DNA from: Agrobacterium salinitolerans
GTDB lineage: Bacteria > Pseudomonadota > Alphaproteobacteria > Rhizobiales > Rhizobiaceae
NCBI RefSeq assembly: GCF_002008225.1
Contig: NZ_MRDH01000002.1
Span: 62,001-126,000, forward strand
Direction of reading: 5' to 3'
DNA: 64,000 nucleotides
Within the stretch, counting starts at the first letter, position 1; every line of letters begins with the position of its first letter. Shown in pieces: positions 1 to 18,357 of this stretch. The notes under the pieces were generated by a model. It did not search any database. It was not told where the DNA came from and worked only from the letters and a program-made list of their open reading frames with translations. The position numbers and the translations under genes were made by a program.

Positions 1-873
1 GGCAACCATGATATTGGCCGACTGGCCGTCCACCTTCAGAATGCTCTGCAGGAAGAACAGGGCGTAAAACTGGCCCGTATACCAGACGACCGCCTGACCG
101 ATGACGGCGCCGACAAGCGCGATGAGCGCGATCTTGGCGTTTTTCCACTGGCCGAAGGCTTCGCTGAGCGGCGCCTTGGATGTCTTGCCTTCTTCCTTCA
201 TTTTCTTGAAGGCCGGAGATTCGTTCATTTTCAGGCGAATCCAGACCGATACGCCGAGCAGCAGAACGGAGACGAGGAAGGGAATGCGCCAGCCCCAGGC
301 GGCGAAGGCTTCCTTGCCGAGCGCGAACTGCACGCCGAGAATGACCACCAGCGACAGGAAAAGGCCGAGCGTCGCCGTCGTCTGGATCCACGAGGTGTAA
401 TAGCCCCTGCGGCCGTTCGGTGCATGTTCGGCAACATAGGTTGCGGCACCGCCATATTCACCGCCGAGCGCCAGGCCCTGCAGCATGCGCAGAACGATCA
501 GGATGATCGGAGCGGCAATGCCGATCTGCGATGCGCCGGGCAGGACGCCGACGAGGAAGGTCGAAACGCCCATGATGAGGATGGTGATGAGGAAGGTATA
601 TTTGCGGCCAACAATGTCGCCCAGACGGCCGAATACCAGCGCGCCGAAGGGGCGCACGAGGAAGCCGGCGGCGAAGGCAAGCAGCGCGAAGATGTTGCGC
701 GTCGTTTCCGGATATTGGCTGAAGAAGTTCGCGCCGATATAGATCGCGAGCGAGCCGTAGAGATAAAAATCATACCATTCGAAGACTGTTCCGAGAGAAG
801 AGGCGAAAATCACCTTCTTCTCTTCGCCCGTCATTGGACGGGCGGCGCCGCTCACGGCTGCAATATCTGCCAT
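1..873 (-). CDS. MHS-family MFS metabolite/proton symporter (C-terminal part cut off by window edge)
   Basis: The reading frame starts with ATG at 873 and stays open to the first base of the window, so about 291 N-terminal residues are seen. The product begins MADIAAVSGAARPMTGEEKK and continues with the typical metabolite:H+ symporter (ShiA/KgtP/ProP group) opening: a first helix containing SSLGTVFEWYDFYLYG, then a G-R-x-G-D-x-x-G-R-K loop (GRLGDIVGRK) between helices 2 and 3, and a GGEYGGAATYVAEH segment in helix 4. About seven membrane segments are visible. It is expected in the inner membrane, importing a small organic acid or osmolyte; the substrate cannot be told from sequence. It is divergent from asd and separated by about 500 bases. 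Confidence 0.9.
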   Translation of the reverse strand, partial: MADIAAVSGAARPMTGEEKKVIFASSLGTVFEWYDFYLYGSLAIYIGANFFSQYPETTRNIFALLAFAAGFLVRPFGALVFGRLGDIVGRKYTFLITILIMGVSTFLVGVLPGASQIGIAAPIILIVLRMLQGLALGGEYGGAATYVAEHAPNGRRGYYTSWIQTTATLGLFLSLVVILGVQFALGKEAFAAWGWRIPFLVSVLLLGVSVWIRLKMNESPAFKKMKEEGKTSKAPLSEAFGQWKNAKIALIALVGAVIGQAVVWYTGQFYALFFLQSILKVDGQSANIMVA

Positions 874-1088
874 TGTCTGTCCTCCACAGATGTCCCAATC
901 GACGCATTGCGGAGCCCAGCTCTCTCCTCTGGACTCAACCTTTCGGCTGCAATGCGCGGACCATGAGAGTGACAGAAAATTAACCCCAGTAAGAGCGATG
1001 CTTTCGGATTATGACTTTAGTCTAATATAGAGCGTCCCGAAAATGTCGCGGGGCTGATTACAGCTTGTTTGCGCAAGCGCCTTTTTTC

Positions 1089-1116
1089 TTGACACAACCG
1101 AGAAACCTTCTAATAG
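1089..1116 (+). promoter_or_regulatory. Candidate sigma-70 promoter for the asd leader
   Basis: TTGACA at 1089-1094 is followed after 16 bases by TAATAG at 1111-1116. It is the best promoter-like match in the 874-1371 gap. If used, it gives an asd mRNA with a leader of about 250 bases, which contains the small ORF described next. The rest of the gap (874-1088) shows no ORF I would support and presumably carries the promoter of the divergent MFS gene. Confidence 0.5.
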
Positions 1117-1141
1117 CTTCTCGCGAAGAAGGAGCATCACC

Positions 1142-1261
1142 TTGCGCATGCATGTTGCAGACATGTTCGTCATGGAAGGACCGGCACAATTGGCCGGCGA
1201 TGATCCGCGCCTTTCTCATTCTACCCGAATTACGGCCAAAACGACGATTAAAACCGTCTAA
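1142..1261 (+). CDS. Putative 39-codon leader peptide upstream of asd
   Basis: A short frame starts with TTG at 1142, seven bases after a strong Shine-Dalgarno AAGGAG (1129-1134), and stops with TAA at 1259-1261. An internal ATG at 1148 is an alternative start. The last 13 residues read STRITAKTTIKTV, with five Thr, two Lys and two Ile; these are end products of the pathway that Asd feeds. Regulatory residues clustered just before the stop are the hallmark of amino-acid attenuation leader peptides. A hairpin CCCCGG/CTGGGG follows at 1283-1299, and GGCC and ACG/CGT segments around 1232-1272 could pair alternatively. No T-run terminator is visible before asd, so classical termination is not shown. 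The frame could instead encode an ordinary small protein, or be chance. Confidence 0.45.
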   Translation: MRMHVADMFVMEGPAQLAGDDPRLSHSTRITAKTTIKTV

Positions 1262-1371
1262 CGTCTCTGGCCACCGCTCTCTCCCCGGTTTGGCTGGGGA
1301 TCGAGGAAGCCGCGATCTGATGCGGGTTCCCACCTCACCAAAAAGAGGAGAGACAGAAAGAGAGCTTGATC

Positions 1372-2406
1372 ATGGGTTTCAAAGTTGCAATTGCAGGCGC
1401 CACCGGCAACGTCGGTCGCGAAATGCTCAATATCCTGGCCGAACGCGGTTTCCCCGCCGATGAAGTCGTGCCGCTCGCTTCCGCCCGTTCGCAGGGCACG
1501 GAAGTCTCTTATGGCGACCGCACGCTGAAGGTCTCGAACCTCGAAAACTACGATTTTTCCGACACGGATATCTGCCTGATGTCAGCTGGCGGCGATGTGT
1601 CCAAGAAGTGGTCGCCGAAGATCGGCCAGCAGGGCTGCGTCGTCATCGACAACTCGTCCGCATGGCGCTACGATCAGGACGTTCCGCTGATCGTTCCGGA
1701 AGTGAACGCCGATGCGGTTGCAGGCTTCACCAAGAAGAACATCATCGCCAACCCCAATTGCTCCACGGCACAGCTGGTCGTTGCGCTGAAGCCGCTGCAT
1801 GACTTCGCCAAGATCAAGCGCGTCGTCGTCTCCACCTACCAGTCGGTTTCCGGCGCCGGCAAGGAAGGCATGGACGAACTGTTCCAGCAGACCCGCGCTG
1901 TCTTCGTGGCAGATCCGGTGGAAGCCAAGAAGTTCACCAAGCGCATCGCCTTTAACGTCATTCCGCATATCGACGTCTTCATGGAAGACGGCTACACCAA
2001 GGAAGAATGGAAGGTTCTGGCCGAAACCAAGAAGATGCTCGATCCGAGGATTAAGGTAACCTGCACGGCCGTGCGTGTTCCGGTCTTCATCGGCCATTCG
2101 GAATCGGTCAATATCGAGTTCGAAAACGAGATCACTGCCGATCAGGCGCGCGACATCCTGCGCGAAGCGCCGGGTTGCCTCGTCATCGACAAGCACGAAA
2201 ACGGCGGCTACATCACCCCGGTTGAATCCGCCGGCGAGGACGCGACCTATATCTCGCGCATCCGCGAAGATGCGACGGTCGAAAACGGCCTCAACCTGTG
2301 GGTCGTTTCCGACAATCTGCGCAAGGGTGCGGCTCTCAACGCTGTGCAGATCGCCGAACTCCTGATCAATCGTGGTCTCATCAAGCCCCGCAAGGCGGCA
2401 GCCTGA
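1372..2406 (+). CDS. asd: Aspartate-semialdehyde dehydrogenase
   Basis: This enzyme reduces beta-aspartyl phosphate to aspartate semialdehyde with NADPH, the shared step toward Lys/diaminopimelate, Met, Thr and Ile; it acts in the cytosol. The 344-residue protein has the N-terminal nucleotide-binding motif GATGNVGREML (residues 9-19), the active-site NPNCSTAQ with nucleophile Cys130, and the FIGHSESVNIEF segment of the dimerisation/catalytic domain. Length fits the family. The ATG at 1372 is preferred to a TTG two codons upstream because it sits after the purine-rich AAGAGGAGAGAC ribosome-binding region. It appears monocistronic, with a hairpin after the stop. The unusually long leader with a Thr/Lys/Ile-rich ORF suggests end-product control (inference). 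Confidence 0.97.
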   Translation: MGFKVAIAGATGNVGREMLNILAERGFPADEVVPLASARSQGTEVSYGDRTLKVSNLENYDFSDTDICLMSAGGDVSKKWSPKIGQQGCVVIDNSSAWRYDQDVPLIVPEVNADAVAGFTKKNIIANPNCSTAQLVVALKPLHDFAKIKRVVVSTYQSVSGAGKEGMDELFQQTRAVFVADPVEAKKFTKRIAFNVIPHIDVFMEDGYTKEEWKVLAETKKMLDPRIKVTCTAVRVPVFIGHSESVNIEFENEITADQARDILREAPGCLVIDKHENGGYITPVESAGEDATYISRIREDATVENGLNLWVVSDNLRKGAALNAVQIAELLINRGLIKPRKAAA

Positions 2407-18282: not shown

Positions 18283-18357
18283 TGGAGCGGGCGAAGGGAT
18301 TTGAACCCTCGACCCCAACCTTGGCAAGGTTGTGCTCTACCCCTGAGCTACACCCGC
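18283..18357 (-). tRNA. tRNA-Gly (anticodon GCC)
   Basis: On the minus strand the sequence folds as a standard tRNA: acceptor stem GCGGGTG/CGCCCGC (one T-G pair), D arm with TAGCTCAGGGGTAGAGC, anticodon arm with CTTGCCAAG, T arm GTTCAAATC, and an encoded CCA end. The anticodon GCC reads GGC and GGT glycine codons. The flanking stretches 18132-18282 and 18358-18741 show no ORF I support; the latter is AT-rich near its end and probably holds the promoter of the next gene. Confidence 0.97.

Follow-up and report, generated by a model that had tools for sequence, protein, structure and literature searches.

A probable Thr/Lys-rich leader peptide conserved ahead of asd in Agrobacterium and its relatives, and a candidate translational attenuator

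Aspartate-semialdehyde dehydrogenase (Asd) makes the shared precursor of Lys, Thr, Ile, and Met and of the cell wall building block diaminopimelate. In the stretch of DNA analyzed here (the window; 64,000 nucleotides of an Agrobacterium salinitolerans contig), a small open reading frame (ORF) with a cluster of Thr, Lys, and Ile codons ends 110 nt before the ATG (position 1372) of a gene whose product we take, following an earlier sequence-only reading, to be Asd. The question raised by this locus is whether the small ORF encodes a leader peptide through which the supply of these amino acids controls asd. The closest named relatives of the Asd protein are Agrobacterium records with 96 to 99% identity, and a relative is present in 193 of 199 genomes of the order (Hyphomicrobiales, from the placement of Agrobacterium). 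Because a long ORF at positions 1 to 873 lies on the opposite strand and points away from asd, asd has a promoter region of its own. The promoter, the spacing of the ribosome-binding box, the TTG-initiated ORF, and the 110-base gap described in the sequence-only reading were all found where it placed them:

1089..1116, plus strand: asd promoter, with a -35 box TTGACA at 1089-1094, a 16-nt spacer, and a -10 box TAATAG at 1111-1116
1129..1134, plus strand: leader Shine-Dalgarno (SD) box AAGGAG, from the sequence, 7 nt 5' of the TTG at 1142
1142..1261, plus strand: leader ORF of 39 codons with a TTG start and a TAA stop, from the sequence and comparison with relatives
1181..1197, plus strand: possible weak hairpin inside the leader, CCGGC-n7-GCCGG
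1372..2406, plus strand: asd, presumed aspartate-semialdehyde dehydrogenase of 344 amino acids, the regulated gene in the proposal

The Thr/Lys/Ile codon cluster of the leader ORF occupies 1223-1255. In the ORF translation, TRITAKTTIKTV forms the 3' end of the frame, directly before the stop; the last residues are STRITAKTTIKTV, followed by TAA, and the last 12 codons include five Thr, two Lys, and two Ile. Codon 3, an in-frame ATG, is a possible alternative start in the window and would give a 37-codon form; loci L004 and L005 have no ATG at this place, yet they retain both the SD box and the TTG.

For comparison, we used 190 asd upstream regions (L002 to L191) from Rhizobiaceae and relatives, 182 of them distinct; L001 and L192, which are the window locus, were dropped. 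In each region, the ORF richest in Thr plus Lys over its last 12 codons and ending 20 to 300 nt before asd was taken, and controls were treated alike. At least six of the last 12 codons were Thr or Lys in 175 of the 182 distinct regions, against 2 of 910 shuffles and 0 of 182 reverse strands, and at least seven in 160 of 182, against 0 of 910 shuffles; these counts overstate the number of separate events because related loci are not independent. In the window's own upstream region, an ORF with at least seven Thr/Lys codons among its last 12 arose in 1 of 5000 shuffles. The enrichment is confined to the end of the leader, with Thr and Lys making up 44.0% and 25.2% of the last 12 codons, against 2.1% and 0.5% in the rest. 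Structural work retained 188 of the 190 loci (L155 and L183 have fewer than four Thr/Lys codons), of which 178 are distinct; groups A (the group of the window), B, C, D, and X are bins defined by regular expressions, not by phylogeny. The leader frame is open across 33 codons in 159 of 159 leaders of groups A and B, against 80 and 102 in the shifted frames. SD-like boxes 5' of the leader start are seen in relatives as well, both by eye and in the score used to choose starts, and the starts assigned to the 116 group A leaders were ATG in 106 and TTG in 10.

Matches to window positions 1000-1420 occur in at least 170 of 247 family genomes. Among the matches listed, the stronger ones outside the genus start at about 1232, in the Thr/Lys codons, and extend past the stop to asd, and many weaker ones cover the asd start alone. 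The leaders of L002 to L031 (n = 30) have 38 to 40 codons, counted from a start preceded by an SD-like box, and 29 of the 30 share a core motif, the exception being L029, which ends in TKTAKKTTKTV. The frame and the Thr/Lys run on which the sequence-only reading had staked its proposal are thus conserved in close relatives. Its expectation of synonymous-biased change was borne out in one part of the leader and not in the other. Among nine Agrobacterium leaders, codons 1 to 27 have 106 non-synonymous and 104 synonymous pair differences, where 3.50 to 1 would be expected, and the leader peptide is under some constraint; the last 12 codons have 14 non-synonymous and 0 synonymous pair differences, as expected if RNA pairing holds the DNA letters. 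The CCGGC-n7-GCCGG motif is present in 54 of 116 group A leaders, against 13 of 1160 shuffles; this hairpin might lie behind the PA..AG motif in group A peptides and is perhaps a pause site.

The final codons, KTTTKTV, are highly conserved within group A. Among 115 group A leaders, codon -9 is Thr, Lys, or Met in 100 (ACG in 44, AAG in 41, and ATG in 12), and Thr occupies codon -4 in 98 leaders and codon -10 in 83, where Ile occurs in 11 and 15, respectively. Positions -11 to -9 together with -7 to -2 in the same 115 leaders hold 90 residues that are neither Thr nor Lys; 46 of these are Met or Ile, and the other 44 include, for example, Ala, Arg, Ser, and Val. In distant groups the peptide differs and the Thr/Lys/Ile codon content is kept, as in Roseibium (KTTKTTKTTA, L092), a Brucella relative (TKTTTKTV, L101), Hoeflea (MRTTIKTKTTI, L100), the 11-codon leader MRTMIKKTTTI of L104 and L158, and the Aurantimonas form MTVRSQTSKTSIS (L110). 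Sensing of Thr, Ile, or Lys, as the sequence-only reading had it, can therefore be refined: the general signal is Thr plus Lys, Ile is prominent in Agrobacterium and among the short group C leaders, and Met is found mainly at one position in group A.

A consensus promoter scan of positions 900-1500 called no site; it misses the asd promoter because TAATAG lacks the final T that the scan demands. Of 178 loci, 165 have a TTGAC box followed after 16 to 18 nt by a -10-like site 5' of the leader (shuffles, 58 of 1780), and this placement, which agrees with the promoter lying upstream of 1142 in the window, holds in every group (A, 109 of 116; B, 37 of 43; C, 9 of 9; D, 4 of 4; X, 6 of 6; shuffles, 43 of 1160, 9 of 430, 3 of 90, 1 of 40, and 2 of 60, respectively). 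In the window, transcription would start near 1122-1124. The TTGAC box of group A lies mostly 164 to 171 nt upstream of the leader stop. The very short leaders of groups C and D (L104, L158, L100, L110, and relatives) have 11 to 13 codons from the last ATG, and the commonest TTGAC-to-stop distances in these groups are only 69 to 75 nt, so that their transcripts may start near the leader's own start codon. These short leaders are possibly leaderless, resembling in this the trpL leader of Sinorhizobium, which begins near its transcription start according to the available part of one source (PMC10117765).

Other elements lie upstream of the promoter. A terminator-like hairpin with a T-run occupies window positions 1063-1088 on the plus strand, just 5' of the asd promoter, and the preceding gene runs in the opposite direction. 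A second conserved element, ATGCTTTCGGATTATGACTTTAGTCTAA, at window positions 998-1025, is separated from the asd -35 box by about 60 nt and includes GACTTTAGTC, a GACT/AGTC inverted repeat; its core is single copy in the genome. A related form was seen in 39 of the 116 loci of group A, against 0 of 62 others, among loci that do not all span the full 600 nt, and in 32 of these 39 it lies 222 to 285 nt upstream of the leader stop. A regulator of asd, or of the divergent gene, may bind this element.

Taken with the codon and frame comparisons, the promoter comparison strongly backs the claim that the ORF is a leader peptide with regulatory Thr/Lys codons, and we consider this very likely. Its distribution extends beyond the family. 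In a sample of 64 loci from 40 of the 51 other families of the order, at least six Thr/Lys among the last 12 codons were found in 35 loci and 19 families, against 1 of 1280 shuffles; the other 21 of the 40 families fell below this mark, five of them with a score of 5. At the class level, 3 of 48 loci outside the order reached six (L266, L273, and L309), against 0 of 960 shuffles, and 45 of the 48 fell below. These three loci belong to alphaproteobacterial genomes, and old origin, transfer, or convergence are options for them. The loci outside the family were scored with a stricter placement, the stop lying 60 to 180 nt upstream of asd; scored in this way too, 183 of the 190 closer loci have at least six Thr/Lys codons, L124 scores 5, and the four group D loci score 4; among the 190, no such leader was found in L155, from a 1.5-Mb genome, or in L183. 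The leader stops of L106, L154, L185, and L086 lie 165, 165, 169, and 125 nt before asd rather than about 110 nt, with extra sequence, perhaps a further hairpin, between the purine-rich box and the asd start.

How might such a leader act on asd? The hairpin-forming sequence noted after the leader in the sequence-only reading is borne out by folding: window positions 1228-1374 fold at -53.2 kcal/mol (z = -3.14; 2 of 200 shuffles were equally good). The segments concerned are these:

1234..1238, plus strand: segment 1 (GGCCA), within the codons ACG GCC AAA; pairs with 1268-1272
1263..1272, plus strand: segment 2 (GUCUCUGGCC), just 3' of the leader stop; partner is segment 1 or segment 3
1276..1282, plus strand: anti-SD segment P2 (GCUCUCU); partner in the closed state is 1359-1365; lies in the loop of helix 2:3
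1283..1299, plus strand: hairpin H2 (CCCCGGU/GCUGGGG), from folding; adjoins the closed-state helix
1292..1301, plus strand: segment 3 (GGCUGGGGAU); partner is segment 2 under the proposed stalling
1305..1330, plus strand: hairpin H3 (GGAA.CCGC / GCGG.UUCC), from folding of the window; its counterpart is counted in alignment A1
1347..1365, plus strand: purine-rich asd ribosome-binding region, with GGAGAGA at 1347-1353 and AGAGAGC at 1359-1365

In group A, the GGAG at 1347-1350 is the strongest SD-like box, and its distance of 21 nt from the ATG makes it uncertain which box loads the asd ribosome.

We propose that the leader ORF (1142-1261) encodes the leader peptide of a ribosome-mediated asd attenuator, the last codons of which would require charged tRNA-Thr and tRNA-Lys and, in Agrobacterium, also tRNA-Ile. 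With ample amino acids, the ribosome would finish the leader and depart, and segment 1 would pair with segment 2; segment 3 would then go into H2, P2 would pair with the asd ribosome-binding region, and the closed region would be poorly translated. When amino acids are scarce, the ribosome would stall over segment 1, and segments 2 and 3 would pair once segment 3 has been made; P2 would be kept in the loop, the binding region would stay open, and asd would be translated.

Structure was compared in two alignments, A1 (34 of the 43 group B loci) and A2 (43 of the 116 group A loci). L086, L106, and L185, which have other spacing before asd, were omitted first, similar loci were thinned to 35 and 49, and loci that appeared wrongly grouped or badly alignable were then left out (L096 from A1; L111, L142, L143, L153, L168, and L180 from A2). 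The consensus fold of group A contains 1:2 and H2 when the leader end is included and the asd start is not, 2:3 when the leader end is removed, and H2 plus a helix closing the asd ribosome-binding region in the full RNA. In group B, the fragment folds into 2:3 with or without the leader end, and not into 1:2 even with it; in the full RNA, H2 and H3 are accompanied by the closing helix. Mutually exclusive helices, one of them involving leader codons, are thus clear in group A and partial in group B.

Helix 2:3 can pair in 98.4% of 430 cells in A2 (slid controls, 32 to 65.3%; two double-change cells) and in 94.1% of 270 cells in A1 (slid controls, 26 to 74.5%), and the nine double-change cells of the latter were matched by 0 of 500 shuffles, a comparison that ignores relatedness. 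The closed-state helices of A1 pair in 90.4% of 750 cells (slid controls, 37 to 59%), with 20 double-change cells, again matched by 0 of 500 shuffles with relatedness ignored; ten of these fall in a single H3 pair and seven in the SD helix. Helix 1:2 of A1 is weaker, with 80.7% of 202 cells and two double-change cells. The closed helix and H2 of A2 pair in 98.2% of 559 cells without any change on both sides and give no test of covariation because they are nearly invariant. The number of pairs with changes on both sides was unexceptional, being matched in 234 (A1 2:3), 26 (A1 closed state), 151 (A1 1:2), and 55 (A2 2:3) of 500 shuffles. In fixed windows, the duplex scores of helix 1:2 outperformed shuffles in group A, and those of helix 2:3 did so in groups A, B, and X. 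Neither helix was supported by these scores in groups C and D, for which the offsets may be wrong, nor was 1:2 in group X; scores of cognate against non-cognate duplexes were mostly uninformative for the SD helix. As far as sequence goes, then, the ORF, its codon cluster, their conservation, and the potential for pairing are accompanied by some compensatory changes, and the helix over the asd ribosome-binding region is conserved with some covariation in group B and is almost invariant in group A.

In RNAs truncated at the 5' end and folded to full-length equilibrium, the SD region did not open in the 178 loci, with positions -20 to -6 unpaired at a mean of about 0.45 whether the ribosome was stalled or not. 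Because this result counts against a simple thermodynamic switch, growing transcripts were folded. This was possible for 101 of the 116 group A loci (15 had no exact landmarks), of which 100 have a 2:3 helix, with the 5' end set at stop-5 for a stalled ribosome. With the stalled end in group A, most of segment 2 stays in 2:3 up to the emergence of the asd binding region; at equilibrium 2:3 then yields to the closed helix (0.84 at the asd start). Without a ribosome, 1:2 and H2 form and 2:3 reaches at most 0.20, and with the ribosome at the stop codon, 2:3 is about zero and the closed state forms. When 2:3 was enforced in group A, the SD box AAGAGAG was unpaired at a mean of 0.57, against 0.30 without a ribosome; 96 of 100 loci showed a more open box, and in 47 the gain exceeded 0.3. 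Keeping 2:3 in group A costs about 4.3 kcal/mol relative to equilibrium, and because the closed helix wins at full-length equilibrium by this amount, the open state must be held kinetically; the model would need a 2:3 lifetime long enough for ribosomes to load on asd.

The corresponding test in group B used the 34 loci of A1. Just after segment 3, 2:3 was at 0.25 without a ribosome and 0.55 with a stalled one, and just before the binding region the values were 0.23 and 0.31; 2:3 was higher when stalled in 22 of the 34 loci, by more than 0.2 in 10. In these folding models the effect of stalling is clear in group A and weak in group B, which may work less sharply or differently. The weak group B effect slightly lowered our confidence in the translational three-state switch as described, which we still favor with modest confidence. 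That the asd leader is a ribosome-mediated attenuator sensing Thr and Lys, here together with Ile, and acting most likely on asd translation, we regard as likely. From these comparisons we infer that the ribosome stalls, that stalling raises asd expression, and that control acts on translation rather than through Rho.

The level of control is where the alternatives differ most. In classical transcription attenuation, the helices would decide the fate of an intrinsic terminator, and the logic of the segments does resemble that of classical attenuators; however, the T-run scan found no terminator-like site 3' of the leader in the window, and between stop+25 and asd, TTTT is present in 20 and TTTTT in 2 of the 178 loci, so that the absence of a T-run terminator remarked on in the sequence-only reading extends to nearly all loci and makes this reading highly improbable. 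The same lack of a U-run agrees with termination by Rho, in which the leader and its sensing would be as proposed here, C-rich RNA after the stop would recruit Rho when no stalled ribosome is present, and pairing at the asd start would be secondary. Pyrimidine-rich stretches 3' of the leader stop and 3' of H3, as well as the weak three-state folding switch in group B, fit this explanation, and leader ORFs of Mycobacterium cys operons, with Rho control suggested in the available part of the report (PMC1262725), offer a precedent. Rho loading would have no need, however, of the pairing opposite the asd ribosome-binding region, which is kept in group B via some compensatory changes, and we consider Rho-dependent control fairly unlikely. 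Of the two outputs that the sequence-only reading had left open in place of an intrinsic terminator, the evidence leans toward translation, less strongly in group B.

Two further explanations would do without sensing. If the ORF were a chance frame or an unrelated small protein, the conserved DNA would be a riboswitch or a protein site; the hairpin may account for part of the conservation in the middle of the leader, and in Agrobacterium it is the DNA letters themselves that are fixed in the last codons. Against this stand the codon statistics and the open frame, the Ribo-seq and Western blot evidence for the Sinorhizobium form in the accessible part of its report (PMC10117765), and the Rfam search of window positions 800-1600, where only two snoRNA models appeared up to an E value of 10, far below their gathering scores. 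No Rfam family reached its gathering score in the leader region, the sole match at that level in the window being a tRNA gene at 18286-18357, and a chance frame or an unrelated small protein is barely credible. An upstream ORF whose Thr/Lys run causes a nascent-chain or slow-codon pause independent of amino acid supply would account for the high conservation of the final KTTTKTV codons in group A, but in distant groups (KTTKTTKTTA, MRTMIKKTTTI, MTVRSQTSKTSIS) the peptide varies and the Thr/Lys/Ile codons persist, and Thr and Lys are rare in the remainder of the leader; we judge such a pause improbable.

An attenuator that senses Thr and Lys and acts on asd translation can be set beside known systems. 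The thrL leader of the Escherichia coli thr operon has codons for Thr and Ile, regulates thrABC, and carries an intrinsic terminator at its end. The asd leader shares with thrL the alternative RNA helices and a cluster of codons for amino acids in which the aspartate pathway ends; it differs in the predominance of Thr and Lys and in its target, asd, and no terminator was found for it. T-boxes bind tRNA directly, and L-boxes (lysine riboswitches) control lysine pathway genes in other bacteria; the asd leader region, as searched in the window, has no covariance model match at gathering level to either or to other Rfam families. Vitreschak et al. 2004 reportedly dealt with attenuators in proteobacteria. 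Corbino et al. (2005; PMC1273637) describe five other RNA motifs, and the word asd is absent from the accessible part of their text. Among actinobacterial leaders of amino acid genes, the translational T-box of ileS and the LEU element of leuA may close an SD box; the LEU element likewise has a leader ORF, with Leu codons, and differs in forming a pseudoknot and in that its authors, in the part of the paper available, deemed classical attenuation via leucine codons unlikely (PMC1262725). The trpL/peTrpL system of Sinorhizobium is also a rhizobial leader-peptide attenuator and differs in that it acts by transcription attenuation with a released small RNA and concerns another amino acid and another gene, according to the accessible parts of two sources (PMC10117765 and PMC7298713).

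The closest precedent is SEP5 of Sinorhizobium meliloti 2011, which is translated, as seen by Ribo-seq and by Western blotting of a tagged copy (Hadjeras et al. 2023; PMC10117765). In the available part of that paper, SEP5 carries six Thr and three Lys codons toward the end of its frame, lies in the 5' untranslated region (5'-UTR) of an "aspartate dehydrogenase-encoding" gene, and is suggested to be a leader peptide conserved only in Sinorhizobium (PMC10117765). The Sinorhizobium loci L060, L076, and L080 have the same count, six Thr and three Lys, in their last 12 codons, and SEP5 is very probably the same element as the asd leader, matched by description and codon count. The two are alike as small Thr/Lys-rich ORFs in a 5'-UTR, and they differ in that no RNA structure or mechanism is described for SEP5 in the accessible text (PMC10117765); the TTG start and the Ile codons are features of the Agrobacterium leader. 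SEP5 aside, our search of the Alphaproteobacteria literature, made mostly among papers outside subscription, returned no report of a wide distribution of the asd leader or of its switch. Leader peptides are a known kind, and the asd form was already proposed in print for the one genus Sinorhizobium; what is added here is the wide spread, the joint reading of Thr plus Lys (with Ile or Met), and a predicted terminator-free switch closing the asd ribosome-binding region.

Put together, and more tentatively than any of its parts, the leader codons may read several aspartate family tRNAs (Thr and Lys and, in some lineages, Ile and Met) as a joint signal of shortage for the branch-point enzyme Asd, a signal that would be passed to translation initiation by a cotranscriptional, terminator-free switch of three helices; such a device would be old in the Hyphomicrobiales and often respelled, with its codon content kept. 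We hold this combined reading to be possible, a little short of probable. Because Asd makes the shared precursor, its control sets the flux of the whole amino acid family in plant symbionts and pathogens. If the reading is true, the asd leader would represent a widespread terminator-free amino acid switch that is in print, as far as we found, for one genus only.
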